From the NCBI GenBank assembly GCA_031763025.1, contig JASSKH010000028.1, positions 7,079,324-7,143,323 of the forward strand: 64,000 nt of DNA, written 5' to 3'. Below are positions 3,671 through 58,084 of the stretch, piece after piece (position 1 is the stretch's first letter; each line of letters begins with the position of its first letter). A program made the translations under genes and the position numbers. The DNA is from Macrocystis pyrifera. Lineage: Eukaryota > Sar > Phaeophyceae > Laminariales > Laminariaceae. Below the pieces are notes generated by a model. It was given only the letters and a program-made list of their open reading frames with translations, was not told the DNA's origin and made no database searches.

Positions 3671-3755
3671 TGTTCATTCTGTTTTCTGAGAGGGGTTTAG
3701 ATGCCCCGCAGCCGGGGTTGTATGTCGGGTCGATTGCCGCGTGAGAGTTCCCACA

Positions 3756-4306
3756 TCGTGCTTGGGTTTCCTCGGCCTCATGTTAGGGCCGGGAGCCGGA
3801 GCAGGAGAGTTTTGTTTTTGCCGAGGCGTGTATCTTGCTGGGTTTCCTCGGCCTCATGTTAAGGTCGGGAGTCGGAGCAGAGAAAAGTTGTGCAGTGCCG
3901 AGGCGTGTATATATCGTGCTTGGGTTTCCTCGGTCTCATGTTAAGGCCGCGGGTCGGAGCAGGGAATTCTTCTAGTTCCAAGGCGTGTATATATCGTGCT
4001 CGAGTTTTCTCGGCCTCATGTTAAGGCCGCGAGTCGGAGCGGGGAAAAGTGTTTTCGCCGAGGCGTGTATCGTACTTGAGTTTGCTCGGCCTCATCTTAA
4101 GGCCGGGGGTTGGAGCAGGAATTTTTTGTTTTTTGCCGAGGCGTGAACGAGTATCGTGCTTGAGTTTCCTCGGCCTCATGTTAAGGTCGCGGGTCGGAGC
4201 AGGGAAATGTTGCAGAGCCGAGGCGTGCATATCGTGCTTGAGTTTCCTCGGCCTCATGTTAAGGCTCGGGTCGGAACAAAAAGTTTTGTAGTGCCCAGGC
4301 GTCTTT
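3756..4306 (+). repeat. Hairpin-forming tandem array, 7 units of ~73-84 bp (copy 1)
   Basis: Each unit reads TCGTGCTTGAGTTTCCTCGG, CCTCATGTTAAGGCCGCGGG, TCGGAGCAGGGAA, a variable A/T-rich tract of 9-18 bases, then GCCGAGGCGTGTATA. Two overlapping hairpins are possible in each: a tight one (CGGCCT, loop CATGTTA, AGGCCG) and a longer one (CCTCGGC with the later GCCGAGG). Unit lengths are not multiples of three, so the open frames across the array cannot be one repeated peptide. See the finding on G.U-preserving changes. Confidence 0.9.
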
Positions 4307-4898
4307 CACCTCTGGAAATAAAAAAAGAAACAGGTAAAAATACAAGTACGATAACGCCCTTGAGCAGCTTGTACCGCGGAGTCAACTTCCTCACGAGGTT
4401 CGTCGAGAACAGCAAGACGGCGTTATCGCCCGCTACTTTCCCCGTGTTCCTATATCTAAGTTGATGTTCGAGTCATGGGTTTCCAAAATAATATGCTTTT
4501 GGTGGCAGTCCGGAGCACGTGCGGTGAAACAAGAAAAACACAGCTTCCTACACGTCCATTTCAGGTCGAGTCAGAAACGAGGTCACGTTCATAGAAATGA
4601 ACTCTACATGTCCCAGATGAGACCAGGATGTGAGCCTGCTATTAATATGTGTGTTGCATCATCACACCAGCCGAAAACCTCCCGTGCTGCTTGTCTCTGT
4701 AGGAGCTGATGGTTTCTCTCGAACGGTACTCGGGTATCACTAAAAGTCTTGGATACTGATTTCCGCTTTCTGAAAATAGAATATCCATCTCACCGCACAC
4801 CGAAACAGCGATTCGACAAATAAATGCTGCCTGCCGACGACGGACATTTACAGCGTGGCGCTCCTCTCACACACCACCTATGTCATAAAAGGCGGTGC

Positions 4899-16991: not shown

Positions 16992-17745
16992 GGGCTGAGG
17001 GTCATTCCTAACGAACAAAAAAAACACGATTCGCGCTATTTCTGTCTTGAGTCGTGATTGTTTTGTCGTGAATCATGGCAAAAAAAATCACGATTCATGA
17101 CGCCAATTGGTTCAGCTTTTCCCTAAAAAAAAAAAAAACAAATCACGATTCGTGGCATTTGTCGTGTCTCTAAATACGTCTGCCCAAGGCACTAAGCAAC
17201 CCAAGCGCACCAACGGTGTCCGAAGACCGGTTTAGAGGCATGGTAGACTCCGCTTCGTACGCCGCTTGTGGACAACGGGCGGCTACCCAAAGACACCTCT
17301 GGGTGCGGGCTAACGTGCACGTTGTGGTCTTGAAATTTCGAGGAAGAGGAGTCACAGCTCGAAAATAAAATCCAAAATGATCTGAGAATATCACAGGCCA
17401 GGCCTGGCACACGGCCTGAGAGATGGAATCTCGCGGACTGGGTTTGGCCGGAGATCGGTGAGATTGGAAGCTCGCAGGCTGGATCAGGCTTCAGCCCGTG
17501 ATTCGAATATATCACGGGCCGGGCCAGGCGCGGTCGGCCCGGCCCGGCCTGGCCAGTTGGCTCCACCCGCAAAAACCGTTGGAATTGAAATATTTTGTGA
17601 ATTTTTACAATTTGAAAATCACGAAACGTGACGTTTCGCAGCTTTTTTCGTTAGAACTGAGATGTCACGGATCGTGATCTTTTGTCATGTCAAAAAGCTA
17701 CGAATCGTGATATTTTGTTACGTTCATTAGGAACAGCCCTAAGGC
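16992..17745 (-). mobile_element. TIR element A, right copy (754 bp, inverted)
   Basis: Reverse-complement counterpart of 15583-16610. It shares the internal GCGGGTGGAGCCAACT box, AACGTGCACGTTAG and TTGTCCACAAGCGGCGTACG, as well as both terminal repeats (GGGCTGAGGGTCATTCCTAA and TTAGGAACAGCCCTAAGGC). It is shorter because it lacks the 270 bp insertion of the left copy. Sequence differs by roughly one base in eight to ten, so the pair is not a fresh inverted duplication. Confidence 0.75.
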
Positions 17746-24754: not shown

Positions 24755-25810
24755 ATCATGTGAGATCCATTTGCACACTCCTCTGGCATGATGATGCTGC
24801 TGTAGGGTGGGTAGGACTGCACACACAATACTGTGCGTGGTAGCGCATTTTTGCTTTTCGTTTTCGATCGAATGTTTTTCGTCTTGTACGCGAGGGTGTG
24901 TAATGCGCACATCTCGCGTTTGTCGTACATATACCCAATATTAAAATAGCCGACTGCTCCAGCAAAATTACGAGATAGCAGTACTTCGCATTTTGCATTC
25001 CTATATCGCGGGTTCTTCATCAACGTGCCACTAAAGTACTTTCTTGTGTTGGCTCGGACTATCGCGTAGGGTACCGACTACTTATACGTAACGCTTTCCA
25101 GTGTAGTGGTTCATACACAGCGCCATAAGCATTCCTCCTGTCACCAATCAATATCCGATGCCGTAGCATCCGAACCTGTAAGTCATTTGGGAAGGTCGAA
25201 GACGGGGGCAATGATCCCCACATGGGGCCTCTTGCACGGCTGTGCAAACGTCCGAACCACGATTCCACAGATTTCTTGTAACACCCCTCCCCTGTCCTTT
25301 GTTGTCGCTCGAAACACGTGGACGTTAGTCTGAGACGCGTGACACCCGAACAAAAATATGAACGAACCCCAAAAAAATCTCCAAACGCGTCTTCATATTT
25401 GTAAAAGCCCCACAGCCCGCCAGACGGGGGAGGGAGGGGGGGGCATCTCCCTGAGAAGCGCCCAAACCGACAGCGAAACAAACTGCATGGCCGACCTACG
25501 AAATATATAGCATACCGTGCGAACGAACGCGTCGTGCTTGCTGTTCATTCCAGCGGCTTGGAACTTACCAACGCGTCCGTGCCCTGTGTCCTGCCTCTCC
25601 AGCACTGCGGACTGCTGTCCCACGCCGCATCCAACGCTGGATCGGGCGCGGCATAAACAGCAGCAGTACGTGGTTCACCGTCGCGAAATGGCTCTGAAGA
25701 TGCGGCGCTGGATGGGTGGGTGGAGTTTTTACCGCCTTTTTCCCCCCTGTCGACGACGACGGAAGGGGTAGGAGGTACTTGAAGCGAACAGGGATAATGT
25801 TTCACGTTTG

Positions 25811-26088
25811 CCGCGTTTTTTTCCTGTGTTGAGAACCTTAGAGGGGAGGGGGGGTGGGGCATTGAGGCAGACTAGAGGTGTGCCCCGCCGAGTATAATCA
25901 CGGTCAACTAGCACTCGCCAATGGTTTGGTGAGAAGCCTTCGCGGGTAGTTTTACCGCGTTTTTTTCCAAGAGGAGAAGGGTGGGGTATTGAGGCAGACT
26001 AGGGGTGTACCCTGCCGAGTATAATCGCGATCAACCAGCACTCACCAATGGTTTGATGAGAAACCCCGGGTCCTCGTGGGTAGTTTCG
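25811..26088 (+). repeat. Two tandem copies of a 125-140 bp repeat (copy 2)
   Basis: Counterpart of 1351-1627, with two units each carrying GTATTGAGGCAGACTA or GCATTGAGGCAGACTA and CCGAGTATAATC. Module copies 3 and 4 hold a single unit. Confidence 0.85.
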
Positions 26089-26804
26089 GCTGTTTTCGGG
26101 GGGTATCCGAGTATCCGTCTAAGGTTACTCGTGTGCCCGGGAGATGCGAGGTATGTGAGAGAGAAAAATTGGTTTTGACGTGTTTTTCAAGGATATTTTG
26201 TACGAAAATTACTGCCAAGGAAAAGTGTGATTACGGACTAACAGTTGCCATCCCCGGGTGATACCCGAGTATCCGGGTACCCGTGGTCTTTCGCGAGTAC
26301 CCGGGTTTGTGGCGTAAAGGATAAACCTCTTGTGTAAAAGGCAGTATAATCGCCCGACAGATCAAGGGTAAGCTGCACCCTGTATTGAACCGCTTGTTAG
26401 GCGGACTTTCTTGCATATGGATGACAGCGATAAACTAATGACTTTTTGCTTTGGTGACCTAGGAGGGGGGTGAGTGGGAAGGGGGGAGAGTATTTGAGGC
26501 GCACATACGTTCTTTGCGTGACGCGCTGTAGACGGCGAACGGTGATTTGGTGAGGCGGCAGCGGCGTACGGGGCGGCGGTAGAGTGACGGGTGTGAGGGG
26601 TGGCGGCGTAGACAGCGAGTGGTGGTATACATCGGGGTGTTTGCGGTACTGACGGTAGGTTAACGCACCGGTGAATGGAGAATCTTCCGGGGCTGATGGC
26701 GCACTCACACCGTCTTACACGCACGTTTTATCGCGGTAAAGCCCGTCTTCACCCCCCCCAAACGATAGAGTACATGCAACCCGCTTGCCACCACCCCCCC
26801 CCAA

Positions 26805-26831
26805 CCCCCCCCCCCCCCCCCCCCCCCCCCC
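26805..26831 (+). repeat. C27 homopolymer
   Basis: An uninterrupted run of 27 C, preceded by CCCCCCCCCAA. The matching sites in the other copies are shorter and mixed (about 2943-2965, 41705-41728, 56034-56055). The copy 4 recombination breakpoint lies directly beside this tract. Confidence 0.9.
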
Positions 26832-27598
26832 GCGCCGAACGGTGAAGTATTCGCAGCCAGCGCAATGCGGTGCACGACGACCGGACGGAACCCGATGGGA
26901 GATACGATTGAACAATCCAACTCATCGTTGTTCACCTTCGCCATGTGTATGTAGCGCGTGGCGTTAGGTCGTTTTTCTCTACAGTAGTTCGTAGAATGGC
27001 AGCAGTAACAGTAGCAGCAGCGGAAATGGTACAAAACCGAAATGTTTCCGGCAAAGCGTAGCGTACCATGTAAAACTGTCAGCGTTAAGACACGCTTTGG
27101 TGTCCTGCGTCTTGGTGACTACGCACGACTGGTCGCGGTGTACTGGCAGAGTTTTGCCACCGTCTGTGGTCGACGAGGGGGGGTGATGGGAGAATGGTGG
27201 ACGGGGGCCAAGACAGTGTTTTATAGAACTTTCATGCCATGGTATCCGCCGTTGTGCTTTCAGAAGCCTTGGGCGAGGTCTCGTGACGGCCTACTATAGT
27301 GTTCCCGTCTCTATGCGACAGGTGAATAACAGCGTGTATCGGATACTGCACTAGAAAACCTCGCGAATGGGTAGTATCCGCGGGTGCATTTTGTTTAACG
27401 CAGGAAACCGAGCTGAAAGGACACATGCTATGTGAGGTGGTGGTTTGGATGGGTGGTTGGGTAGTAACTGGTTGATTGGCGGGGGTGGTTGGGCGGTGGG
27501 TAGGGGAGAGCGTCCTTGTTTATTCTTTTCTGAGAGGGGTTTAGATGCCCCGCAGCCGGAGTTGCAGTCGGGCCAATAGCCGCGTGAGAGTTCCCACA

Positions 27599-28306
27599 TC
27601 GTGCTTGAGTTTCCCCGGTCTCATGTTAAGGCCGGGGGTCGGAGCAGGGAAGGTTTGGTTTTTGCCGAGGCGTGTGTCTTGCTTGGGTTTCCTCGGTCTC
27701 ATGTCAAGGCCGCGGCTCACAAACAGAGAAGTTGTGCAGTGCCGAGGCGTGCATGTATCGTGCTTGAGGTTTCTCGGTCTCATGTTAAGGCCGTGGGTCG
27801 GAGCAGGGAAGGTTTGGTTTTGCTGAGGCGTGCATGTATCGTCGTTGAGTTTTCCCGGCTTCATGTTAAGGCCGTGGGTCGGAGCAGGGAAGTCTTTACT
27901 TGTGGCCTAGGTGTGTATCGTGCTTGGGTTTCCTCGGCCTCATGTTAAGGTCGTGGGTCGGAGCAGGGAGTGCTCATTTTTGCCGAGGCTTGTGTCGTGC
28001 TTGAGTTTCCTCGGTCTCATGTTAAGGCCGCGGGTCGCAGCAGGGAAGTGTTCAGTGCCGAGGCGTGCATACATCGTGCTCGAGTTTCCTCGGCTTCATG
28101 TTAAGGCCGCGGGTCGGAGCAAGCAAGTCTTGTTTTTGCCGAGGCGTGTATCGTGCTTGAACTTCCTCGGGCTCATGTTCAGCCGCGATTCGGAGCGGGG
28201 ACAGTATGTTTTTACCGAGGCGTGTATATACCGTGTTTGATTTTCCTCGGCCTCATGTTATGGCCACAGGTCGGAGAAGACAAGGTTTATAGTGCGAAGG
28301 CGTGTT
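27599..28306 (+). repeat. Hairpin-forming tandem array, 9 units of 76-81 bp (copy 2)
   Basis: Units start at 27599, 27677, 27758, 27839, 27918, 27995, 28074, 28151 and 28231. Units 1-7 all keep the six-pair stem CGGCCT/AGGCCG, each with exactly one C-to-T change that turns a C-G pair into a U.G pair. Units 8 and 9 are degenerate (four pairs). The loop CATGTTA is almost invariant. Between the conserved GGAGCAGGGA and GCCGAGG lies a short variable A/T-rich tract. The leader GTTTAGATGCCCCGCAGCCG is also conserved in all four copies. Confidence 0.9.
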
Positions 28307-28860
28307 TAAGATTTGGAAAAACAGATTAACAGGTAAAAAAATACAAGCACTAGAACGCCCCTGAGCAGCTTGTACCGCGGAGTCAACTTCCTCACGAGGT
28401 CCGTCGAGAACAGCAAGACGGCGTTATCGCCCGTGTTCCTAAATCTAAGCTGATAGTCGAGTCATGGGTTTCCAAAAAAAGATGTTTTTGGTGACAGTCT
28501 CGAGCACGCGCGCTGCAACAGGACAACCACAGCTTCCTACAAGTCAATTTCAGGTCAAGTCAGAAACGAGGTCACGTGGCATAGAAAATAGGTCTACATG
28601 TCCCAGATGTGACCAGGATGTGAGACTGCTATGTGAGTTGCATCATCACACCAGCTGAAACCTGCCGTGCTGCTTGTCTCAGTAGGAGCTGCAGGTTTTT
28701 CTCAAACGGTACTTGGGTGTCACTAAAAGTCTTGGATACTGATTTCCGCTTTCTGAAAATAGAATATCCCACCCACCGCACACAGAAACAGCGATTCGAC
28801 AAATAAATGCTGCCTGCCGACGACGGACATTTACAGCGTGGCGCTCCTCTCACACACCAT

Positions 28861-29322
28861 CTATGTCATAAAGAGTGGTGCTAAGTTTCCCGGCTTTCGG
28901 TCGTTGTTGTGGCTTGTGCGCAAGTCATCCATCCGTAACCTCAGTTTTTCGTTTTCAAGCAAAACTTGCTTGTGTTTCGTGTTTCTCATAATTCTCATAA
29001 TCTCTTTTATCGTTTCCTCAGGACCATCGAGCCAGTAGAGCCAGACAGCTTTACTGGTACAGTACTTCACCATTAGAGGGGGCATAGTACCGCATAGTAC
29101 TGCAGAACCCATGATGGACCCAAAAACCGTGTATCCCACAAATACTAATACTATGTCTACACACCGTATTTGTTTCTGCTCACTACTGTATGTTCTCAAG
29201 TAATAGCAGGTGGGGGGAAGCCCCCGTACGTCCCATGCACTCCAAAGTTCGGTACAGAACCTGGTTACAGTTTGACGCACGGTTTCTTTGTTTATGAAGG
29301 AAACAAGAAACAAAAGAAACAA
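28861..29322 (-). other. 153-residue minus-strand reading frame, probably not a working gene (copy 2)
   Basis: Frame beginning MFLLFLVSFINKETVRQTV, with KYCTSKAVWLYWLDGPEETI in the middle and a charged helical C-terminus (ENEKLRLRMDDLRTSHN). It is identical but for a few residues in copy 4 (58085-58546). Copies 1 and 3 carry stop codons. Codon differences between copies 1 and 2 are mostly amino-acid-changing (about 15 to 5). It is either a dead gene fragment carried by the module or an accidental frame. No family recognised. Confidence 0.25.
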
Positions 29323-30521
29323 GAAACAAAAAACAAACTCGGCGAAACCAAGTATAAGCCCATTCTAAAACCTACCGTACACCAAAAATAGCGGGGATTG
29401 GGGGGGAGGTAAAACAAGCCTACTCTTAAGTCCATGTTACCAAAACGACGTGCCAGTTCGTACATCGGACGAAGGACCTTCTTCTCGCACTTGCCACGCC
29501 CTCCATGTAGACGGGATGGCGGGAGGTCCTGCTACGGTGTCCACCGATACCACATGCGGACCCCAGCAAAACAAAAGAAAGCTGCATGCACGTTGTCATT
29601 TTTTTTTAATGCAAGCGAAACCACGGCGCGACTTAGAAATACAACCAACCATGAAACACAAAACTGCCGCCACGAAATAATTTGCCTCTCTATTTCGTAC
29701 TACTGCAGACATAAGCATGCGAAGCGCGGTTCGGCAGATCAATCAACCCCCAAAAGACCGCGCAACATGTTTGCGTCATATTTGTGGACATCTCCGCCAG
29801 CGTTGGGGCGCCAATGGTGGCATTGGCTGTTGCAAAAAAAAAGGAAGTCGTACAATAGCACGGCCACCTTACATCCTGAACACAAGACAAGAGCTCTCGT
29901 AACTCCTTTCCTTTCAAGAAGCCCTTCTTAAATCGTTCCGCCATGAGCCACATCAAACAAAACAAAGTGCACGCTTCGCTACCTCTAAGCAACGTGGCGC
30001 AACTCATCTTCCATATAGCAAGCGACTGTAAATTCTCGGCCTGGGCCAAAGTAGATTACGGTGGGACAATTCTAAGTCAGGTTACGCAAACAACAGATAC
30101 AGGTACACAGCAGAAGGTATCATACTACTGGGGGTCATTCCGGAGAGAAAACGGCACCAAACTTGTCCCCATCGACTGCGGACTTTTAAAGAAAAGGAAC
30201 GTGATATTTTTAAGCGTTCGAGCAACCAAGGACGCAAAAAACTACCAGTATCCGATTCACCAAGGTCAGCGTCTACAGTAGAGTGCGCAGCACACGTATA
30301 CCCATTTAGAGTTATCTCTCTGTACATGTCCTGCGGCTGGGTACAGAAACGAATTGTTTCGGCTACGAGTAATTGTGACAGTAGTCGCGGATATTTTTAC
30401 ACGGCTCGACGCTTGTATGTGGCAGCAGACGAGGTGTAGCAGGCAGGTAAGCAAGTGAAGTGGCGAGGTGCTACAAGTGGGCCAAATAAACTTTTCGCTC
30501 GCCCCGACGGGAGCCATCACA
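29159..30521 (+). repeat. 1.36 kb block present in copies 2 and 4, partial in copy 3, absent from copy 1
   Basis: Flanked by CTATGTC on the left and GTTCTACGGAGAGCTGCC on the right. In copy 1 the same flanks lie 34 bp apart (5181-5214). Copy 3 has only the first 620 bp before it is cut off at 44780. The block holds the 112-residue frame at 29943-30281. No terminal repeats are visible, so a deletion in copy 1 is as likely as an insertion. Confidence 0.8.
29943..30281 (+). CDS. Hypothetical 112 aa protein (copy 2)
   Basis: ATG-initiated frame: MSHIKQNKVHASLPLSNVAQ at the start, a Thr/Gln-rich middle (QVTQTTDTGTQQ) and a basic end (GLLKKRNVIF, RATKDAKNYQY). Base composition and codon use do not stand out. 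An identical frame lies in copy 4 (59180-59518), too recent a duplicate to test selection. No domain, signal peptide or membrane helix is recognised. It could equally be a chance frame in the 1.36 kb block. Confidence 0.2.
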   Translation: MSHIKQNKVHASLPLSNVAQLIFHIASDCKFSAWAKVDYGGTILSQVTQTTDTGTQQKVSYYWGSFRRENGTKLVPIDCGLLKKRNVIFLSVRATKDAKNYQYPIHQGQRLQ

Positions 30522-30861
30522 GTTCTACGGAGAGCTGCCCACCACAATAGACGAGTTCAGCCCCAGTGCACCGCGACGAGTTACGCCGCATACAGCAACT
30601 TCTTTTACGTCTGACCGGCTCCTCAATCTATGCTCGGGAGCACAACTGCAAGCGTGTTTCTCTTCGCCAGGAGCATCTGAATCGTGGGAGGGTGCGACAC
30701 CGAAAATCAGCGACGGTGGTCATCGCGGGGGAAGGGGGCGCGGGGGGGGGGGGAAAGTGTTGGAAACCACTACAGTAATGCCTTGCGAAGACAAGCAGAG
30801 ACAATCCAAGGAGGACGAAGAGTGTGTGTGTACTCATTATCATGCATGGCCGTAGTCGTAC

Positions 30862-31719
30862 GGGGGGGGGGGGGGGGGGGGGGTGTACTCGATAGGATGT
30901 ACTCGATCTCATGCATGGCCGCCGTAGGCGTATGACCATAGACCCTCGCATCCCTACAATGCCGGGACGGAGCATGTCGGGTTTTCACCGACCAGGCAGA
31001 CATTGCTTGCACCAAGCGCGAAGCGCCGTGAGGTGTCCGGTGAGTCGCATGAAGGGTGAGCTGCATCCTACTAAGAACCGCTTGTGAGGCGGACTTGTAT
31101 ATGGATGACAGCCTCAATGAGTTGGTTTAATGTCCGGTGTTGCCACTTCCAGAGACAGCAATGGGAGTACTATGTAACTGCCTCTTGGGTGCCTTACGTT
31201 GAACACTACGTGATACGATCAATTCCCTTGTGCAGAGTAAAGGTTCTTTACTTCGCGCAAATGATCTCACTCGAGAACCAGCTGTGGGCGACCGCCAAAA
31301 AAAAAAAAAAAAAAAAAAAAAAAACGGTACCCTGGATGTCTAGCTCACGGGGGGGGGGGGGGGGGGTGGCAGAACAGCTGGGTGGCCCTTTCGTCTAGCC
31401 AGATTGGTACGGCGTTTACTGCGAGAAACCGAGTGGCAGGCTTTCAACACAGCTGCGGTGACACCCTACCTAGTACCCGTGCGTCGTTTTTCTTCTGGAT
31501 CGCTCCACCCGGAGAATTTTACGTGCACAGGTAGTCGGGACCCGCTCCGTGCACAATGTGAGCGCAAAAACATCCTTGTGCAGACATGGAATAATGTTGC
31601 ACACCGATAGGCGTACCAAACTTAGAGATTGTCGACTTTGTGGTGTTTGCGACATTGTTTAGTGTCCCCACAGGAGGCGCTTATGCCCCCAATATGCAGG
31701 GGGGGGGGGGGGGGGGGGG
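30862..31719 (+). repeat. Homopolymer cluster: G22, A28, G18, G21 (copy 2)
   Basis: G22 at 30862-30883, A28 at 31297-31324, G18 at 31349-31366 and G21 at 31699-31719, all in the same strand sense. The tracts end in TGTACTCG, CGGTACC, TGGCAGAAC and TCCCGG respectively. The near-identical copy 4 has G24, A20, G26 and G24 at these sites. Copy 1 has G13, A18, no G tract (a 110 bp non-homologous stretch instead) and G20. Confidence 0.9.
30910..31112 (+). repeat. Recurrent ~200 bp submodule (copy 2)
   Basis: Same unit as 5538-5740 and 60147-60347, between CATGCATGGCCG and GATGACAGC. Only the last 80 bp recur at 26362-26440 in the same copy. Confidence 0.85.
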
Positions 31720-33449
31720 TCCCGGCCACCTGTACTGCGCCATCTCCGGTAGAAGACGGCTTCGGCTTCCAAGGCAAAACAACTCAATTCACAACAGGTG
31801 CACAATCGTGACGTATACTGGTACGTGCGAAGCACAAGTACTACTGACTGCGAGTCGCTGACTTCCGCCCTTCATTTTCGGGGTGCCGTTCTACAGTTAG
31901 TTCTGGCGGGCCATGGGTTGGTCTGCCGGTACACTATCCACACCTTCTCGCTGCCTGTACGTACTCCTACGACCTACAGCAGTAATTGTGATTACCGAGA
32001 GGCCTGGAGCTAAAATCTTGAAAAAAAAAAAAAAAACGGACGGAGCGAAGCGCACAACAAGAGGTGCTTTTCTTGCTGGCCAAGGGTTGAACACCCCTTC
32101 AGCAATATAAAAACACAATCACGCTATATATATCCGAATCTGCGAAGAAACACAACAGCCTCCCCCTCGAAAGAAAGCCAACATTCCTGTAGCAATCCTG
32201 ACTTATTATACCGCTCTCGAAACCGGGGGAAGTATTCCGTCCCGGGAAAAACAAAATCCATCACCATCATACCAAGGTACTTGACTTCGTGCACACATAC
32301 CGTAGGCAATGCACATGTTGGCCGCGAGCAGAATGATGAGTCCGCCATCCTTTCACCCGCCCCAGGCTTCAATTTCGTTTTTTCGCCCTCGACAACTGGC
32401 CACATCTCAGTGGTGGCCCGCCCGCTCCCATACCCCTAGCCCCTCCCCTCTCCTCCCCCCCCCTCCTCCCCGCGCGCGCGCTCCGATGACTTCGCTTCTC
32501 ACCGACTGGATCGATCGCAGCTCGCAAAAACCTTTCTCCTGGCATTAGATAGTCGGAGCTTTTTCCCGATAGGCTCCAACCCGAGGTATTGGTCGGCCAT
32601 GCTCGGACCCTTCGTGGAGAGCCAGGGGTGCTCAAGCGCTCCAGCTGCCATCATCCGCTCAACTGGGCCCACCCTCGCCAGTTTGTTTTATCATCATGTC
32701 CTATTCTAAATTATCAAATGGCGGCGACAGTCCGAAAAAAAAAAACAGAGAAGAGAGGGGGGGTGCGGGAGGGCGAGTGGAGGGGGGCGGGAGGGGGAGG
32801 GGGGAGAGAGAGAGAGAGAGGGGGGGGGGGGGGGGGGGGGGTAAAGAGCGTTTGAAATCTGCTACCAGGTACGAGTGAGTGTATGTAACCAAATGATGTT
32901 CGTGCTTTATGGTATCATACCGCCTGCACCTTACTGTACCGTAGTACAAAATCACTCGCATAACATGAAGAAGGAGCGCCGGACACTGCGACACCTACTA
33001 TCAATGCGAGCGCAAATAGTGTAACCTTCTGTAGGACCCCCGAACATGGCGTGTAAAAAATTATCGCTCAGCCACGAATCTCGACTATGAACGTACTTGG
33101 CCGTCTGTCCTCTGGGCATATATCGGTCATAATTAAAGCTATTTTGGCTCTGCGCAACCGCATGTGGCACGGCTCGTCGTTACTGCTGGCTTCAGCGTAC
33201 TTTCCAACTAACCGAAGGCCACCAAAATACTTGAATGAGGTGTATATCGACCCGAAAGCTGCTGCCGTTGCGAAAAGAAAGGACTCCCGTTGCGTGGCCA
33301 GGGGGGGCTGATACCTGGTTTTTTTTTTTCTGTGTCGAAGTCGTCTGAATAAGGCGACTCGCCTACAGTAGTCGATGATACTGATACGTACCTCGTACGT
33401 ACTATATTAGGCGGCTCGTCAAAATAGTTATCGGTGTCGAGCCATTTTA

Positions 33450-34290
33450 GCATTTTAGCCTTGCTACTCCTCCAACTGAAAGTTTGCACCTCCAACAAAT
33501 CGGGTACGAAAACGGCGATCCCCCGGGTCGATGCCGCCCCGTACGGTGTGGAAACCCCAACCCCACCGGCTGACTGCTGATTGGCTGGGTTTCGTGCACC
33601 CAGCTCCACCCAAGGAGGATAGTGTTCGAATATGGTTGTTCAGCATTTTGGCAGTTTCATGGCTGTTCGGGATATCGGCTTATTTTAGGTTAAGTGGTGG
33701 TTGTTTCTGTGAGTGCACCACTACCCACATGGTCACTCATTCTGCCTCTACTCTGCCGGGAGAATAGTACGAAAAACCTGAATCATCTTCGTTCTTTGCC
33801 TGGGATTTATCAACAGATAGGATCCCCTCTTCGCATCATAAATATTTCCATACATCTGTAACTCCAACAAACCGGGGACGAAAGAGACGGTCTCGAGGTC
33901 GATACCGCTCCGCACGGTGTGAAAACCCCAACCCCACTGGCACATTGCTCATTGCCTGGGGTTTGTGGGGCCAGAACCACTCGGGGAGGCTACGGTCTCA
34001 TCCCCGGATCATAAATACTTCCATACATCCGAAAATCAAACACAATGGGCACGAAAGAGGCGGTCGCTCTCCGGGTCGATATCGCCCCGCACGGTATGAA
34101 AAACCAAACCACGCTGGCCGATTGGTTGGGGTTTGTGCAGCCAGCGCCACCTGGGGAGGATAAGGTCCCCCATCCCCGGATCAGAAATATTTCCATAAGT
34201 CTCCAACTCCAACGAGTCGGGGACGAAATCGGACTTCCTCCCGGTTGATACCGCCCCGTGCGGTGTGGAAACCCCAATTCCGGGTACACC
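33450..34290 (+). repeat. Tandem ~165-175 bp repeats (copy 2)
   Basis: About four units. The first (33450-33620) is separated from the rest by about 210 bp of other sequence (33620-33830). Shared words are CCGGGGACGAAA, GTCGATACCGCCCCG, GGTGTGGAAACCCCAA and ATCCCCGGATCA. Copy 4 has the same layout. Confidence 0.85.
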
Positions 34291-35277
34291 GGAAGTTTTG
34301 TTCTTGGCGCCTAAAGCCGACACCCCCACCCGAACCTTAAGCCAGTGATCAGTGCTTGGGTGCTGTGCTTTGTAAAGACTGCTGGAGGTTGGTTCGGCCG
34401 GCTCGGGACACTGTGGCATGGAAAAACTCTACTATAGGTTGATGGAGCCGCCCGCAATATATTCCTGACGGTAGCCAATGATAGCTACAGTACCTCAGGA
34501 AGATTCACTTCAACACGTCACTACTAATGCCATTGTTACTGATGTCGACAGTTTCGTGAGGCCGGCGGTTTCCACCCATTGGAGACAAAAAGACTCAGCA
34601 AGGAAGTTCATTAACCATCAGATGCCGGTAGACCAGGGGTGCACGCAAAAAATCCGACACCGCACTATTATTAAGGTATCCATTTTAGAGACCCAGACAG
34701 GGGGGGTGAGGGGGCGTACTCATTTGTTGCGTGCCTTCGTCATTTGACAAATGACCGCGCATCCCTTTCGAGACGGAGCACCGTTCCTGCTCCTGATAGA
34801 GACACCTCCAACAATGGGGGTGCTCTTTACGTTGTTTCTATATATTACATTGAAACCTTTTGCTAATCTTTAATATTATCACTTTCCTGTTTGGCCGCCT
34901 GTGTGGTCACCATCTATCTCCTAGGATAGCGATCGTTTTCTCGCTGCTATCTAGTGTAAATTCCTCCATGTCACATTCGTCTATTTCCCTCATCTCCTCT
35001 TCTAACACATCCCGCCACGCCCCTCCTTGTACATTTCACATTCTCCTACTATTAATATGTGAGTTCTACTCTCTATGGCTTTGCCACACGGACACATCTG
35101 TGCATCTACTTCCTCCTCCTCCCGGCTGCTGGTATACCTCTTTCTTCTTCTTCCTGGCAGGTCCAGGTCAGCTACACGACATCGCAGTTTCAGCGTTTTT
35201 GCGAAGTCCATTGGCCCGTGCAAATACTTTTTCATTCCAATTCCTTCCCTCAATCCCCCGTATATCCCTAATAATAA

Positions 35278-36084
35278 GGCTGTTTCCTATGCGGTTCGAT
35301 TCTAAAGCTTCAGATTTTGACCCGATCGCATTTTCAGATATGAACGTGGCAAATCGAAACAGTCTTCCTATGATATGCGGAAAAATCAGATTTATTCTGC
35401 GTGTAGGGATTCGAGCAAACGCCGAGACCAACTGCTGTTATTGTGGTTTGGCGCCGCGAAGAGACGCGCTCGGTGCGCTGCCCTGCGCGCAGGACACAAG
35501 CGTCTGAGCCCACGCTGATTGCCTCTGATCTAGCGGCGAAGAGACGTGGCGAATGCGCTAGAGTCAACCTGTCTTGGCATTTTGTGTTTCATTTTGACAT
35601 GTGACTGACTGCTGCTGCTGCTGTACAGCAGCAGTGTAGTCTACGAGTACGTATCCACGGAGAGGTGCGTGCCGAGGGCGCTTCTCTTGGTCTCTAGGCC
35701 CGAGCCCGCCCCAGCCGACTGTAGTCTGGCCACGGAGGCGCCGCCCGCGCGTCGGGCGCGAAGCAACGCCGCTACACAGCTGTGTCACCATCCAACTCAT
35801 CGATCGTTCTGCTGCTGTTGGCTGTCGTGGATAACATCTTGAATTTAGAGAGCATGCCATTTTTCGATTTGAAAATCTGATGACCCAAGCCGTCGGATTT
35901 TGGGCCAAGTCGTCGGATTTTGGGATTTTGGGCCAACCCAAAATCCGACGGCTTAGGTCATCGGATTCTCTCAAATCGAAAAAATTGCCGTCGGATTGTG
36001 CATATTTGGACTGCATAAGCAGGGTCATTAATTTTTGAGATCGTAAAATCTGAAGCTCGAAATCGAACCGCATAGGAAACAGCC
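35278..36084 (+). mobile_element. TIR element E1 (807 bp), family of element C
   Basis: TIRs GGCTGTTTCCTATGCGGTTC and GAACCGCATAGGAAACAGCC. TAA lies directly on both sides (35275-35277 and 36085-36087), a 3 bp target duplication typical of PIF/Harbinger-type elements. No transposase frame. Inside: a CTGCTGCTGTACAGCAGCAG palindrome near 35615 and the CCCAAG..GTCGGATTTTGG hairpins near 35880-35970. Copy 1 of the LINE fragment shows the empty site. Confidence 0.85.
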
Positions 36085-36125: not shown

Positions 36126-36904
36126 GGCTGTTTCCTACTGGTATGCGGTTCGATTTCAAGCTTCAGATTTGTATTTTTCGATTTCAAAAATGAATTACCC
36201 TGCTTATGCAGTCCAAATATGCAAAATCCGACCGGAAATCTTTCGATTTGAGAATCCGACGACCCAAGTCGTCGGATTTAGGGTTGGCCCAAAATCCGAC
36301 GACCTGGCCCAATATCGAAAAAATGGCATGCTCTCTAAATTCAAGATGCTATCCACGACAGCCAACAGCAGCAGAACGATAGATGAGTTGGATGGTGACA
36401 CAGCTGTGTAGCGACGTTGCTTCGCGTCCGACGCGCGGGCGGCGCCTCCGTGGCCAGACTACAGTCGGCTGGGGCGGGCTCGGGCCTAGAGACCAAGAGA
36501 AGCGCCCTCGGCACGCACCTCTCCGTGGATACGTACTCGTAGACTACACTGCTGCTGTACAGCAGCAGCAGCAGTCAGTCACATGTCAATATGAAACACA
36601 AAATGCCAAGACAGGTTGACTCTAGCGCACTCGCCACGTCTCTTCGCCGCCAGACCAGAGGCAGTCAGCGGTGGGCTCAGACGCTTGTGTCCTGCGCGCA
36701 GGGCAGCGACCCCAGCGCGTCTTCGCGGCGCCAAACCACAATAACAACAGTTGGTCTCGGCGTTTGCTCGAATCCCTACACGCAGAATAAATCTGATTTT
36801 TCCGCATATCATAGGAAGACTGTTTCGATTTGCCACGTTCATATCTGAAAATGCGATCGGGTCAAAATCTGAAGCTTTAGAATCGAACCGCATAGGAAAC
36901 GGCC
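36126..36904 (-). mobile_element. TIR element E2 (779 bp), inverted neighbour of E1
   Basis: Reverse complement of E1 with very high similarity, from GGCTGTTTCCTACTGGTATG to the complementary terminus. A 38 bp host segment (36088-36125, containing TTTTCCGATTCCACGCTGTT) lies between E1 and E2 and matches uninterrupted LINE DNA at about 9840-9866. E2 is therefore a second insertion a few dozen bases away in opposite orientation. TTA precedes it and TTTTA follows, so the target duplication is likely TTA with two extra T. Confidence 0.8.
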
Positions 36905-37051
36905 TTTTAGCGCTAGCCTTTCCCTTCTTTCTATCTTTTCTGCCCTGTACCTTCCAAACAGGGAGGGGGGGGTATACTAAATTCAAATGAAGCAAAATTG
37001 AAAAAAACAAATTTCGTAAATTCGTCCAGAAATCCCATCCCACTGGTTTAC

Positions 37052-38089
37052 TTCTCGAGTGCCAGGTACCAGGTACCTACGCGTATTGCTTTATACGTAT
37101 ACCAATACACAGCAGCAACCGGCGACCACCGGCAAGAATGTCGACGATTACAACACAGCAGCGATAGCCATTGCTGCGTGATTGGGGGATGGTACAAATT
37201 GGTGTCCGGTGTCCGGGTTACAATGAATGCTAGGACTCGTACGGCACAGGCGCAACATGATTCTACAGGTATTGATACCATACCTGGTACGTGCCACTGG
37301 GCGTTGACTACACCAAAGCTACCTGGTATAGCCGTACAGCAGCGGTTCCAGGTATTAATAGTTGCTTTGCTAATACTGAATAGTAATAGTCGCTGTCTCG
37401 GAGGAGTCCCCAAGGGGCTAATAATAATGCTGCTGCTGTTCAAGAATGTACTCACCGTGGCAACGCCGCCAGCAGCAGCAAGTTGCTCCATCTATCTGCT
37501 CCGTTGTCGGGCTCGCCAGCAGTATACCGTCGCCAGCTTTACGCGCTCGTGTCACGAACACAGGGGAGGAGAGCGCAGACAGAGGAGCACAGAGCACAGA
37601 GCACATAGCACAGCAGCACAGGGCACAGAGCGCAGCGCCGATCGCACCGCATTTTCTCACCATGTCGCACCGCGTTTTTTTTCTACCTTGGTACAGTAGA
37701 AACCCTTCAGGGGGGGCACGGGAACGGGGACCGGGGACAGTGATCGAACCTGTAGGGATGAATATTCTTGGTTGGCCGAACGATAAATATTAGACCGCTG
37801 ATTGGCTAGTACTGATTCGGACGGTTTTTTTTTCGTTTGTTCACAAATAATTCGGTGTTCCGTTTTCGGTACCATATCTTGTTCGTAGCACAGTAAGAAG
37901 AGCAGCTGCTGTTGTCACACAGAGACGCTATATATACCAGGTACGAAGCAGTTTGGTTCTGCTTGCCCCGGAGATTGCATCATCAGGCGGCCGAAGACAT
38001 TGGGCAGAGGTTGGAACATCGCTGGCAGCGGAACTCCAGACAAACCTCTCCTTGCATTCGAATCCCGCTCTCCAAGCTCCAAAGGCACG
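37052..38089 (+). other. Upstream region of ANK2
   Basis: Aligns with 21640-23107 without the CCATGG-word insertion. Holds TATATATA at 37929-37936 and an AGCACAGAGCACA-rich stretch at 37575-37640. It starts directly at the LINE truncation point. Confidence 0.75.
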
Positions 38090-39750
38090 ATGCCGCGCCG
38101 CATCATCAATTACAACGACATCCTGAAGGCCTTGCCGATGCGCGACAAAGCGCAGCTCTTCGACGCGCTCTACAACGGCTGTGCTAGAAATGACTTAGCG
38201 GTTTTTCTGGCCCCTGCGCTTGAGCACGCTGCTACTGCCGGCAATCCGGACCTAGTCAGGAAGACACTCGTGGCTGGTGCATGCGCCAACACACTCCAGT
38301 CGAGGAACGGAGACCCTATGCTGCACCTGGTAGCTGCAGGCGGCAACGAGAAGGCTGTGCAGGCCCTTCTCGACCATGGTGCGGTTGTGGATGCGCCGGG
38401 TAAGCTCGGCTACACTGCGCTGCATCTAGTGGCACACAACCATAGGGACTGCGCTGGCGCGGCCACCGCTCTCTTGGCGGCCGGAGCAAACGCCGGGCTC
38501 CGCTCTAACCCTCCGAACGGCAAGACGCCCCTGGAGATGGCCCTCGAGTCTAAATGCATGGGCGTCATCATGGCCCTCATACAGTACGGGGCGAACATCC
38601 ACGATACCGCCTATGACGGGGAAACTGCGTTGTATACCGCAGTCCAGTGCAGGCGCAACGACGCGATCAGCGTTCTCGTCAAGGCCGGGGCCGATATCAA
38701 TGCGCCAGACCGATACGGAATAACGCCTCTACACGTTGCCTCGAACGCAAACAATCCCGAATGCGTGAAAACTCTGTGCGAACTTGGTGCAGAGATCAAC
38801 AAGCGCAACGGGACAGGCGACACGCCGCTCCATTATGCATTAGCGGACCCCTGGAGACCTCGCGCGGTAGTCGCGCTACTGGAGGCTGGCGCGGATGTCA
38901 ACCTCCGGCAAGACGACGACGACAACTTCTCAGCGCGCTGGACTTGGCCGCCATGGGCGGGCATGTTAACATGCTGAAGAGGCTCATCCGACACGGAGCG
39001 GACGTCACCGCCGCCGACAGAAAAGGCAACACAGCGCTGCACCACGCTGCCTACTGGAGCCAGACAACCGCGATCCGCGTGCTCGTCCAGTCCGGGGCGA
39101 ACGTGGACGCCCGGGACTCGGACGGCCAAACGCCCCTCCACCGCGCTTCCAGGCGGCCGGCGGTCCGAACTGCGGACACTCTCTTGCGCCACGCCGCTAG
39201 CGTCAACGCGCGGGACAAACTCGGGCAGCAACCGCTTCACCTCGCAGTCCGCATGTCCCGCGAAGACAGCTCCGCTCGGATCGTCGAACGTCTGCTGCGG
39301 TCGGAGGCCGACGAGAGGGCCGTCGACGACGACGGTCGCACCGCGGCGGCCGTGGTTGGACTCGACGCACCACACGGGTTGCCCGGGGGAGGCCTGTCCG
39401 GCAACCCTGCCGTGCTGAATCTGCTAGCCAACGCCCCCGCCGAAAGGATCGAGAGGAGGTGGCGCCGCCGTAGCTTCCTGGTGATGTGCCGCTCACGCCC
39501 CAACAGGGCGCCGCCAATGCCTCCGGAGCGCGCCGACGAAGCGCCTCGCCGAACTGAGGGCGTGATGACCCGGAAGAGGGCGAGATTGGCCGTGGTGAAG
39601 AGGGGGGGGGGCGATGCGGTGGGTGACGACGGCGGACGGGGAAACGCTCACCGGGGAGCCGCGGAGCGCGCGAGCGCACCTGATCTTGTTGCGACAGTGG
39701 TAGGGATGGATGTGGACATCCTCTTCCGGCACGTGATGTCGTTTCTGTGA
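38090..39750 (+). pseudogene. Ankyrin-repeat gene ANK2, broken by a 2-base frameshift
   Basis: Paralogue of ANK1 in tandem. It starts MPRRIINYNDILKALPMRDK and reads through the helical cap and about seven ankyrin repeats. After NFSA (residue about 282, near 38933) one extra GC in a GCGCGC run shifts the frame, and the shifted frame ends at 38977. From 38938 the other frame continues the homology without further damage to the same C-terminus (WRRRSFLVMCRSRPNRA, RKRARLA, HVMSFL). It could be a recent pseudogene, a truncated 295-residue protein, or an assembly error in a GC repeat. Upstream of the break it differs from ANK1 at roughly one residue in four. Downstream the two are almost identical. 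Confidence 0.85.
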
Positions 39751-42494
39751 AGCATGTGAGATGCATTTTATTTGCACACTCCTCTGGCATGATGATGTCG
39801 CTGTAGGGTGGGTAGGACTGCACACACAGTACTGTGCGTGGTAGCGCATTTTTGCTTTTGGTTTCTGGTCGAATGTGGTTCGTCTTGTACGCGAGGGTAT
39901 GCTGTTATTGATATTATGCACACATCTCGGCGTTGTCGTACATATACCCAATATTAAAATAGCCGACTGCTCCAACGAAATTACGAGACAGCAGCACTTC
40001 GCAATATGCATTCCTATCTCGCGCGGTCTTCACCAACATGCCACTACAATACTTTCTTGTGCTGGCTCGTCCTTCAGCGTAGTGTGCCGACTACTGCTGT
40101 TGTACGTAACGCTTTCCATCGTAGTCGTTCGTATAGAGCGCCATATGCATTCCTCCTGTCACCAAACGAGAACCGATGCCGTAGCATCCGAACCTGTCAG
40201 TCGTTTGGGAAGGCTGAAGGCAAGGGTAATGATCCCCACACGGGGCCTCTTGCACGGCTGCGCAAACGTCCGAACCACGATTCCATAGAGTTGTTGTAAC
40301 ACCCTTTGTTGTCGCTCGTAGCGCGTGGACGTCGTTTTGAGACGCGTGACACCCTAACAAAAATAACAACAAACCCCCAAAAATACTCCAAACGCTTCTA
40401 GATATTTGTGAAAACCCCACGGCCCGCCAGACGGGGGAGGGGGGGGGGGGGTATCTCCCTGAGAAGCGCCCCAAATCGACAGCGAAACAGACTGCATGGC
40501 CGACCTACGAAATACATGTTACACCGTGAGAACGAACGCGTCGTGCTTGCTATTCATTCCAGCGACTTGGGACTTACCAACGCTCCCGTGCCCTGTGTCC
40601 TGCCTCTCCAGCACCGCGGATTGCTGTCCCACGCCGCATCCAACGCTGGACCGGACGCGGCATAGACAGCAGCAGTACGTGGTTCACCGTCGCGAAATGG
40701 CTCCGAAGATGCGGCGCTGGATGGGTGGGTGGAGTTTTTACCGCCTTTTTCCCCGTGTCGACGACGGCGGAAGGGGTAGGAGGTACTTGAAGCGCACAGG
40801 AATAATGTTTCACGTTTGCCGCGTTTTTTCCCCGTGTTGAGAACCTTAGAGTGGGGGGGGGGGGGGTGGGGTATGGAGGCAGACTAGAGGTGTACCCCGC
40901 CGAGTATATTCGCGGTCAACTAGTACTCGCCAATGGTTTGGTGAGAAACCCCGGGTCCTCTGCGGGTAGTTTCGGCTGCTTTGGGCGGGGATCCGAGTAT
41001 CCGTCTATCAGCCGGATACTCCTGCACCCGGGAGATGCGAGGATGTGAGAGTGAAAAATTGGTTTTGAAGTGTTTTTCATGGATATGTTGTGGGAAAATT
41101 ACCGCCAAGGAAAAGTGTGATTACGGACTAACAGTTGCCATCCCCGGGTGATACACGAGTATCTGGGTACCCGTGGGCTTTCGCGAGTACCCGGGTTTGT
41201 GGCGTAAAGGATAAACCTCTTGTGTAAAAGTCAGTAAACTCGCCCGACAGATCAAGGGTAAGCTGCACCCTGCTTGCTATGAGCCGCATGTGAGGCGGAC
41301 TTTCTTCTATATGGATGACAGCGTTGAGTTAATGATTGTTTGCTTTGGTGACATCGAACGGGGGGGGTGGGAGGGGGGGGGGGGGGTATTTGAAGCGCAC
41401 ATACGTTTTTTGCATGACGCACTGTACACTGCGAGCGGCGACTTTGGTGTGATAGTAGCGGCGTACGGGGCGGCGGTAGAGTGACGGGTGTGAGGGGTGG
41501 AGGCGTAGACAGCGAGTGGTGGCGGACATGGGGGCGTTCGCGGTACCGATGGTAGATTAACGCGCCGGTGAATGGGGAACCTTCCGTAACTGATGGCGCA
41601 CCCACACCGTATTTCACGCATGCTTGATCGCGGTAAAGTCCGCCTTCACCCCCCCCCAAACGGTAGTACATGTAACCCGCTTGCCACCACTCCCCCGGCG
41701 CCAAGTACCCCCCTCCCTCCTCCCCCCGCGCCGAACGGTGGAGTATTCGCAGCCAGCGCAATGCGGTGCACGACGACCGGGCGGAATTCGTTGGGGAATA
41801 CGATTGAACAATCCAACTCATCGTTGTTCACCTTCGCCATGTCTATGTAGCGCGTGGCGTTAGGTCGTTTTTCTCTACAGTAGTTCGTAGAATGGCAGCA
41901 GCAACAGTAGCAGCAGCGGAAATGGTACAACCCGAAATGTTTCCGGCAAAGCGTAGCGTACCATGTAAAACTGTCAGCGCTAAGACACGCTTTGGTGTCC
42001 TGCGTCTTGGTGACTACGCACGACTGGTCGCGGTGTACTGGCAGAGTTTTGCCACCGTCTGTTGTCGACGAGGGGGGGGTGATGGGAGAATGGTGGACGG
42101 GGGGCCAAGACAGTGTTTTATAGAACGCCTATGCTATGGTATCCGCCGTTGTGCTTTCAGAAGCCTTGGGCGAGGTCTCGTGACGGCCTACTATAGTGTC
42201 ACCGTCTCTATGCGACAGGTGGATAGCAGCGTGTATCGGATACTGCACTACAAAACCTCGCGAATGGGTAATATCCGCGGGTGCATTTTGTTTAACGCAG
42301 AAAACCGAGCTGAAGGGACACATGCTATGTGAGGTAGTGGTTTGGGTGGGTAGTTGGGTAGTAACTGGTTGATTGGCGGGTGGTTGGACGGTGGGTGGGG
42401 GGAGAGCGTCCTTGTTTATTCTTTTCTGAGAGGGGTTTAGATGCCCCGCAGCCGGAGTTGCAGTCGGGCCAATAGCCGCGTGAGAGTTCCCACA

Positions 42495-43206
42495 TCGTGC
42501 TTGAGTTTCCCCGGTCTCATGTTAAGGCCGGGGGTCGGAGCAGGGAAGGTTTGGTTTTTGCCGAGGCGTGTATCTTGCTTGGGTTTCCTCGGTCTCATGA
42601 TAAGGCCGCGGCTCACAAACAGAGAAGTTGTGCAGTGCCGAGGCGTGCATATATCGTGCTTGAGTTTTCTCGGTCTCATGTTAAGGCCGTGGGTCGGAGC
42701 AGGGAAGGTTTGGTTTTGCTGAGGCGTGCATGTATCGTCGTTGAGTTTCCCCGGCTTCATGATAAGGCCGTGGGTCGGAGCAGGGAAGTCTTTACTTGTG
42801 GCCTAGGTGTGTATCGTGCTTGGGTTTCCTCGGCCTCATGTTAAGGTCGTGGGTCGGAGCAGGGAGTGCTTATTTTTGCCGAGGCTTGTATCGTGCTTGA
42901 GTTTCGTCGGTCTCATGTTAAGGCCGCGGGTCGCAGCAGCAGGGAATTGTTCAGTGCCACGGCGTGTATACATCGTGCTCGAGTTTCCTCGGCTTCATGT
43001 TAAGGCCGTGGGCCGGAGCAAGCAAGTCTTATTTTTGCCGAGGCGTGTATCGTGCTTGAATTTCCTCGGGCTCGTGTTAAGCCGCGGTTCGGAGCGGGGA
43101 CAGTATATTTTTACCGAGGCGTGTTTATACCGTGCTTGATTTTCCTCGGCCCCATGTAATGGCCACAGGTCCGAGAAGATAGGTTTTATGATGCGAAGGC
43201 GTGTTT
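42495..43206 (+). repeat. Hairpin-forming tandem array, 9 units (copy 3)
   Basis: Unit for unit the counterpart of 27599-28306. The first seven again keep the six-pair stem with one G.U wobble each. Loop variants CATGATA appear in units 2 and 4, and unit 6 has CGTCGGTCTC. The last two units are degenerate in the same way as in copy 2, so the array was already this long before the duplication. Confidence 0.9.
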
Positions 43207-44065
43207 CACATTTGGAAAAACCAATTAACAGGTAAAAAAATACAGGCACTAGAACGCCCCTGAGCAGCTTGTACCGCGGAGCCAACTTCCTCACGAGGTC
43301 CGTCGAGAACAGCAAGACGGCGTTATCGCCCGTGTTCCTAAATCTAAACTGATATTCGAGTCATGGGTTTCCAAAAAAAAAAATGTTTTTGGTGACAGTC
43401 CCGCGCACGTGCGGTGCAACCGGACAAACGCAGCTTCTTACAAGTCAATTTCAGGTCAAGTCAGAAACGAGGTCACGTGGCATAGAAATAACTCTATATG
43501 TCCCAGAAGTGACCAGGATGTGAGACTGCTATTAATATGTGTGTTGCATCATCACACCAGCCGAAAACCTTCCGTGCTGCTTGTCTCAGTTGTCAGAAAC
43601 GAGGTCACGTGGCATAGAAAATAGGTCTACATGTCCCAGATGTGACCAGGATACATCACTGCCATGAATACGTATGTTGCATCATCACACCAGCTGAAAC
43701 CTGCCGTGCTGCTTGTTTCAGTAGGAGCTGCAGGTTTCTCTCGAACGGTGCTTGCGTGTCACTACAAGTCTTGGGTACTGATTTCCGCTTTCTGAAAATA
43801 GAATATCCCACCCACCGCACACAGAAACAGCGATTCGACAAATGCTGCCTGCCGACGACGGACATTTACAGCGTGGCGCTCCTCTCACACACCATCTATG
43901 TCATAAAGGGCGGAGCTCAATTTCGCGGCTTTCGGCGTTGTTGTGGCTTGTGCGCGAGTCATCCATCCGTAACCTCAGTTTTTCGTTTTCAAACAAAACT
44001 TGCTTGTGTTTCGTGTTTCTCATAATTCTCATAATCTCTTTTATCGTTTCCTCAGGAGCATCGAG

Positions 44066-55714: not shown

Positions 55715-56820
55715 TATTTGAAGCGCCCATACGTTTTTTGCATGACGCACTGTACACTGCGAGCGGCGACTTTGGTGTGGTGGTAGCGGCGTACGGGGCG
55801 GCGGTAGAGTGACGGGTGTGAGGGGTGGCGGCGTAGACAGCGAGTGGTGGCGGACATGGGGTGTTTGCGGTACTGATGGTAGGTTAACGCGCCGGTGAAT
55901 GGGGAACCTTCCGTGACTGATGAGACACTCACACCGTGTTACACGCACGCTTGATGGCGGTAAAGCCCGCCTTCACCCCCCCCCAAACGGTAGTACATGT
56001 AACCCGCTTGCCACCACCCCCCCGCCGCCGAGTACCCCCCCTCCCCCCCCCCCCCGCGCCGAACGGTGGAGTATTCGCAGCCAGCGCAATGCGGTGCACG
56101 ACGACCGGACGGAACCCGATGGGAGATACGATTGAACAATCCAACTCATCGTTGTTCACCTTCGCCATGTGTATGTAGCGCGTGGCGTTAGGTCGTTTTT
56201 CTCTACAGTAGTTCGTAGAATGGCAGCAGTAACAGTAGCAGCAGCGGAAATGGTACAAAACCGAAATGTTTCCGGCAAAGCGTAGCGTACCATGTAAAAC
56301 TGTCAGCGTTAAGACACGCTTTGGTGTCCTGCGTCTTGGTGACTACGCACGACTGGTCGCGGTGTACTGGCAGAGTTTTTCCACCGTCTGTGGTCGACGA
56401 GGGGGGGTGATGGGAGAATGGTGGACGGGGGCCAAGACAGTGTTTTATAGAACTTTCATGCCATGGTATCCGCCGTTGTGCTTTCAGAAGCCTTGGGCGA
56501 GGTCTCGTGACGGCCTACTATAGTGTTCCCGTCTCTATGCGACAGGTGAATAACAGCGTGTATCGGATACTGCACTAGAAAACCTCGCGAATGGGTAGTA
56601 TCCGCGGGTGCATTTTGTTTAACGCAGGAAACCGAGCTGAAAGGACACATGCTATGTGAGGTGGTGGTTTGGATGGGTGGTTGGGTAGTAACTGGTTGAT
56701 TGGCGGGTGGTTGGGCGGTGGGGGGGGGAGAGCGTCCTTGTTTATTCTTTTCTGAGAGGGGTTTAGATGCCCCGCAGCCGGAGTTGCAGTCGGGCCAATA
56801 GCCGCGTGAGAGTTCCCACA

Positions 56821-57530
56821 TCGTGCTTGAGTTTCCCCGGTCTCATGTTAAGGCCGGGGGTCGGAGCAGGGAAGGTTTGGTTTTTGCCGAGGCGTGTGTC
56901 TTGCTTGGGTTTCCTCGGTCTCATGTCAAGGCCGCGGCTCACAAACAGAGAAGTTGTGCAGTGCCGAGGCGTGCATGTATCGTGCTTGAGGTTTCTCGGT
57001 CTCATGTTAAGGCCGTGGGTCGGAGCAGGGAAGGTTTGGTTTTGCTGAGGCGTGCATGTATCGTCGTTGAGTTTTCCCGGCTTCATGTTAAGGCCGTGGG
57101 TCGGAGCAGGGAAGTCTTTACTTGTGGCCTAGGTGTGTATCGTGCTTGGGTTTCCTCGGCCTCATGTTAAGGTCGTGGGTCGGAGCAGGGAGTGCTCATT
57201 TTTGCCGAGGCTTGTGTCGTGCTTGAGTTTCCTCGGTCTCATGTTAAGGCCGCGGGTCGCAGCAGGGAAGTGTTCAGTGCCGAGGCGTGCATACATCGTG
57301 CTCGAGTTTCCTCGGCTTCATGTTAAGGCCGCGGGTCGGAGCATGCAAGTCTTGTTTTTGCCGAGGCGTGTATCGTGCTTGAACTTCCTCGGGCTCATGT
57401 TCAGCCGCGATTCGGAGCGGGGACAGTATGTTTTTACCGAGGCGTGTGTATATACCGTGTTTGATTTTCCTCGGCCTCATGTTATGGCCACAGGTCGGAG
57501 AAGACAAGGTTTATAGTGCGAAGGCGTGTT
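56821..57530 (+). repeat. Hairpin-forming tandem array, 9 units (copy 4)
   Basis: Differs from the copy 2 array by only a few bases (for example GAGCATGCAAG for GAGCAAGCAAG). Same stems, loops and degenerate last two units. Confidence 0.9.
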
Positions 57531-58084
57531 TAAGATTTGGAAAAACAGATTAACAGGTAAAAAAATACAAGCACTAGAACGCCCCTGAGCAGCTTGTACC
57601 GCGGAGTCAACTTCCTCACGAGGTCCGTCGAGAACAGCAAGACGGCGTTATCGCCCGTGTTCCTAAATCTAAGCTGATAGTCGAGTCATGGGTTTCCAAA
57701 AAAAGATGTTTTTGGTGACAGTCCCGAGCACGCGCGCTGCAACAGGACAACCACAGCTTCCTACAAGTCAATTTCAGGTCAAGTCAGAAACGAGGTCACG
57801 TGGCATAGAAAATAGGTCTACATGTCCCAGATGTGACCAGGATGTGAGACTGCTATGTGAGTTGCATCATCACACCAGCTGAAACCTGCCGTGCTGCTTG
57901 TCTCAGTAGGAGCTGCAGGTTTTTCTCAAACGGTACTTGGGTGTCACAAAAAGTCTTGGATACTGATTTCCGCTTTCTGAAAATAGAATATCCCACCCAC
58001 CGCACACAGAAACAGCGATTCGACAAATAAATGCTGCCTGCCGACGACGGACATTTACAGCGTGGCGCTCCTCTCACACACCAT

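Follow-up and report, generated by a model that had tools for sequence, protein, structure and literature searches.

Does a tandem array of approximately 78-bp units in Macrocystis pyrifera, in which stem changes were proposed to preserve pairing only in plus-strand RNA, give rise to a transcribed structured RNA, or is it an ordinary noncoding minisatellite? Having analysed the whole 64,000-nucleotide stretch in which it lies (the window), we favour the latter as the most likely reading, with some distance to certainty. In line with the first-pass annotation, which reported four tandem arrays of 7-9 units, Tandem Repeats Finder together with unit splitting resolved 34 units (7+9+9+9), and a unit profile search of the window at a threshold of E 10 recovered all 34 plus one extra match at E 9.8 (Table 1). 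The consensus unit indeed contains the tight hairpin described before, a 6-bp stem closing a 7-nt loop (CGGCCT-CATGTTA-AGGCCG), and an overlapping 7-bp pairing of CCTCGGC with GCCGAGG located later in its own or in the preceding unit. By the cuts used here, unit lengths range from 76 to 84 bp and shift the reading frame from unit to unit, which bears out the previous exclusion of a repeated peptide. The arrays span 0.55-0.71 kb and, within copy 2, units are 58-92% alike.

Table 1. Positions of the repeat arrays and associated features in the window. Array coordinates are approximate, the end of each last unit being the analyst's choice.
Feature	Positions	Strand	Description	Identified by
Array copy 1	3755..4309	+	7 units, older and more diverged module	Tandem Repeats Finder, unit splitting, profile search
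Array copy 2 (array under study)	27598..28308	+	9 units	Tandem Repeats Finder, unit splitting, profile search
Array copy 3	42494..43207	+	9 units, orthologous to copy 2	Tandem Repeats Finder, unit splitting, profile search
Array copy 4	56820..57532	+	9 units, nearly identical to copy 2, without stem difference	duplication match, unit splitting, profile search
Segmental duplication holding copy 2	25979..34763	+	97.3% identical to 55190-64000	
Ankyrin-repeat ORF, 593 aa	22973..24754	+	ends 2.8 kb upstream of copy 2	Pfam

Each array is contained in a long collinear duplication and has been inherited with its module. Apart from the close match between modules 2 and 4, 25979-28683 is 91.7% identical to 40864-43590, and copy 1 is older, at about 80-95% identity to copy 2 in 200-column windows. 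This matters for how the stem changes are counted. In copy 2, units 1-7 each carry exactly one C-to-T change in the stem, every time leaving a G.U pair (CGGTCT in units 1, 2, 3 and 6, CGGCTT in units 4 and 7, AGGTCG in unit 5), just as claimed previously; units 8 and 9, which that account omitted, do not fit, since the former breaks the stem by a C>G change plus one lost G and the latter by two mismatches. Copy 3 was said to repeat the pattern, and the stems of its units 1-7 are letter-identical to those of copy 2, yet this identity is inherited rather than independent. Between copies 2 and 4, zero stem positions differ. In the tree of units, copies 2-4 cluster at 8 of the 9 unit positions, the exception being unit 6 of copy 3, which carries an indel and is probably placed elsewhere due to it. 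Copy 1 does mix perfect and wobble stems as described, with units 4 and 5 perfect, one C>T each in units 2, 3 and 6, an A>G (U.G) in unit 1 and a changed 3' arm in unit 7. Given the identical stems of copies 2 and 3, the 34 units thus reduce to 16 distinct lineages (7 in copy 1 and 9 common to copies 2-4), and with copies 2-4 forming a single lineage, independent stem events are few. To our minds, the case mainly illustrates how segmental duplication can inflate evidence: of 34 units, 16 lineages are left, and the stem transitions that carry information number about eight.

Head-to-tail units of one origin are what defines a minisatellite, and the array shares with minisatellites or short satellites in segmental duplications its unequally diverged units, co-copied flanks and a multi-unit period: a two-unit period of 156-159 bp outscores the 81-bp period in copies 2-4, as does a 238-bp period in copy 1 (Tandem Repeats Finder). 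It differs from an ordinary minisatellite in that each unit combines two overlapping inverted repeats with one-sided stem changes. Most likely, unequal crossing-over amplified, head to tail, a founding unit of roughly 78 bp that carries an inverted repeat centred on GGCC. Local segmental duplications then spread the entire array along with its flanks, and the recurrent stem variants of copies 2-4 are inherited. What we infer here is the crossing-over, as well as a lack of function; the tandem structure and the joint inheritance of arrays and modules are shown by the data. The C-to-T wobble in the stem may then be chance seen after the fact or may reflect weak constraint; a modest one-sided constraint is left without explanation.

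Another option is plus-strand transcription of the array, with the hairpin, or its exchange with the CCTCGGC/GCCGAGG pairing, mattering in the RNA, for instance as a putative repeated binding platform for an RNA-binding protein. We consider this option rather unlikely, though it is the strongest of the alternatives. Under it, selection would purge G>A changes from the stem while tolerating C>T changes, which leave G.U pairs. Consistent with this, stem cells in the 16 lineages comprise 79 Watson-Crick, 12 G.T, 1 A.C, 2 other and 2 gap states, and parsimony on the midpoint-rooted maximum-likelihood unit tree assigns to the tight stem 7 C>T changes and a single G>A, as opposed to 12 C>T and 19 G>A changes for the remaining unit positions, excluding variable tract and loop (Fisher P 0.02; two-sided binomial for 7 of 8 stem events, P 0.07). 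Across 200 bootstrap trees, the stem receives 5-8 C>T and always 1 G>A, the rest 9-13 C>T and 16-26 G>A. The sole stem G>A sits in unit 9, where the stem has a second mismatch. Equal C-to-T change in unpaired positions had been set beforehand as the outcome that would refute an RNA and, per site, C>T is in fact similar inside (7 over 5 C) and outside the stem (12 over 10 C); what differs is G>A, with 1 over 5 G in the stem being below 19 over 19 G in the rest. The stem signal therefore lies in the scarcity of G>A, which is what maintenance of pairing in the plus strand would predict. When each unit's changes were shuffled among like bases, a permutation that ignores shared descent, the plus-strand rule left 91 of 96 cells paired where the shuffles average 83.8 (P 0.005) and 13 of 16 units intact where they average 8.0 (P 0.002), whereas the minus-strand rule gave 80 paired cells for a shuffle average of 80.6 and 2 of 16 intact units. 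All these tests of stem bias, it has to be said, were picked after the pattern was known. The proposed plus-strand wobble bias of the tight stem is present in the sequence; with few independent changes (about eight), its 7:1 ratio versus 12:19 elsewhere amounts to a weak statistical hint that the hairpin matters as plus-strand RNA. The longer pairing, which holds 8 G.T and 4 A.C cells (3 and 2 in its own columns), shows little bias.

Change since the duplication points in a similar direction. Copy 3 departs from copy 2 at 1 of 107 positions in the stem (in unit 9) versus 6 of 63 in the loop (P 0.011, and again 0.011 without unit 6), although over the older comparison stem and loop changed equally fast (1.0 events per site); the longer pairing alone differs at 4 of 90 and the remainder at 30 of 454 positions, the latter comparison with the stem giving P 0.017 that rises to 0.14 without unit 6, where one indel is spread by the alignment. 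Mutation itself seems an unlikely source of one-sidedness. Each arm of the stem reads the same on the opposite strand, and so the stem controls for its own sequence context: context-dependent mutation should hit both strands of such an inverted repeat alike, and the changes seen are one-sided. Moreover, with changes between copies 2 and 3 polarised by copy 1, a C>T strand excess was not found in the 5' flank (C>T 16/246 C, G>A 25/360 G), the 3' flank (8/212 C, 8/185 G) or further upstream (10/208 C, 10/262 G); the array itself has C>T at 2/113 C and G>A at 2/182 G.

Speaking against a structured plus-strand RNA, apart from stem-breaking units 8 and 9, is the lack of covariation. In both the tight stem and the longer pairing, no double change occurs at any pair, and covariation above shuffles, the mark of a conserved structured RNA that was hoped for in the aligned units, was not found in either. 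Paired cells in the tight stem amount to 95.4%, compared with 94.8% in shuffles (62/500 as high), and RNAalifold returned a covariation term of -0.26 without any double change. An extended hairpin suggested by single-unit folds (columns 5-49) was rejected, its pairing being 83.7% versus 83.8% in shuffles and a double change occurring once, in a single unit, where 0.9 pairs are expected. As for the two pairings as such, dinucleotide-shuffling the consensus unit 1000 times gives a stem of at least 7 in 4.0% of cases and a stem of at least 6 with a loop of 10 or less in 4.6%; two stems of at least 6 arise in 7/500 shuffles and at least one such stem in 99/500. Hence the presence of two pairings per unit is above chance, not extreme. 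Nor is the plus strand favoured by the majority of folding measures. The whole array folds with z -1.0 on the plus (4/20 shuffles as good) and -1.2 on the minus strand (1/20), the 16 units folded singly with mean z -0.6 and -1.0, their consensus with -1.6 and -2.4 (below column shuffles on both strands), and the unit core with -2.1 and -2.4, respectively. Module windows inside the array do lean towards the plus strand: six overlapping ones starting there have a mean consensus-fold z of about -1.3 plus versus -0.8 minus, and among the windows scanned the plus-strand z reaches its minimum at 27676 (-2.32, 0/60), while minus-strand windows outside the array go lower still (25563 at -2.35, 26225 at -2.93).

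If there were a plus-strand repeat RNA, the G.U-weakened hairpins (7 of 7 among units 1-7 of copy 2) might conceivably exchange with the overlapping CCTCGGC/GCCGAGG pairing of their own or a neighbouring unit and so make up an array of small conformational switches, an idea we regard as a long shot. Should the RNA scenario be true, functional repeat RNAs could be found cheaply from the genome alone by looking for a G.U bias confined to the stems of palindromic tandem repeats, where the palindrome acts as an internal control for mutation context.

Less probable than a plus-strand RNA is a regulatory DNA array, in which the palindrome of each unit would be a putative site for a DNA-binding protein and repetition would strengthen binding. 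This would agree with the palindromic core changing less, at 1.0 events per site in stem and in loop as compared to 1.87 in the rest of the unit. However, the arms of a palindromic site should gather C>T and G>A in similar numbers, contrary to what is observed, and between copies 2 and 3 the loop does change (6/63). A strand-biased C-to-T process linked to transcription or replication, formerly put forward as the main alternative and capable of making the wobble pattern without selection, could draw on the G+T richness of the plus strand across the array and its upstream stretch (27250-28250; GC skew +0.14 to +0.34 and AT skew -0.15 to -0.44 over four 250-bp windows), yet is highly improbable as the flanks are without C>T strand excess and C>T roughly equals G>A per site in the rest of the units (12/10 C, 19/19 G).

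The window holds 13 ORFs of at least 200 aa, a scarcity that points to eukaryotic DNA, as similar ankyrin genes may point to a brown alga, and 136 stop-to-stop ORFs of at least 110 aa were listed; among 22 proteins scanned with Pfam, two match ankyrin, and the other 20, taken from the 136, gave no match at E 0.01. Near the array, comparison of copies 2 and 3 revealed no consistent codon periodicity; against copy 1, with 28400-30200 left out, 31700-32000 is uneven (17, 7, 6). In tblastx between modules outside the ankyrin gene, all frames are alike among the best 60 of 75 matches for copy 1 and the best 60 of 89 for copy 3. No Rfam match at gathering score and no tRNA were found in the window, the one Rfam match in 25000-29800 (E 1.3) lying below gathering score.

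Relatives of the array were found neither in the viral, plasmid and genome-contig collections searched nor, for the plasmids, with the array itself as query. A degenerate core pattern matched once each in viral_contigs (L001) and genome_contigs (L002), which we dismiss as single chance matches: the surroundings of both were read through and gave no blastn match to the window, and a tandem-repeat search on L002 yielded nothing related. The ankyrin ORF has one distant relative in viral_contigs and matches 19 phage records, 13 of them of Wolbachia, which we read as reflecting the ankyrin repeat only. Among the matches listed from the open-licence literature, including PMC6418280, PMC7151548 and PMC10505914, no description of the array was found in the portions of text available. 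According to PMC7151548, Drosophila hsr-omega carries 280-nt units across about 10 kb, and Firre has repeats of 156 nt. Tandem noncoding units, which could offer many copies of one RNA element, are a trait that the array has in common with such lncRNAs; the arrays here differ in being only 0.55-0.71 kb long, and the likeness is one of tandem organisation, any transcript from them being putative.

As regards the module neighbourhood, copy 3 likewise lies downstream of an ankyrin-repeat gene (DNA match and tblastx), and in copies 1 and 4 similarity to module 2 sets in at 957 and 54346, downstream of the ankyrin gene's place. The ankyrin gene of copy 3 (38000-39750) is split across two reading frames, whereas that of copy 2 is a single 593-aa ORF. 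At 46441 to about 50319 lies a fifth and diverged ankyrin module, which is without an array and has two noncoding patches in common with module 2 (25507-25662 / 49661-49812 and 27102-27279 / 50117-50294). These are about 82% identical, while the ankyrin proteins of the two modules share about 50% identity or less in the tblastx segments seen. The patches may be regulatory elements, RNA-coding elements or the result of recent exchange; two patterns derived from them had no match in viral_contigs. Elsewhere in the window, an inverted repeat with 600-bp arms (35272-35871 / 36310-36909, 96.7% identical and about 440 bp apart) is a possible foldback element, another large inverted repeat (15990-16610 / 16999-17613) is 82% identical between its arms, and a separate tandem array of about 62/125-bp units (53244-53659) is found about 0.7 kb upstream of where the copy-4 module has its boundary (54346).
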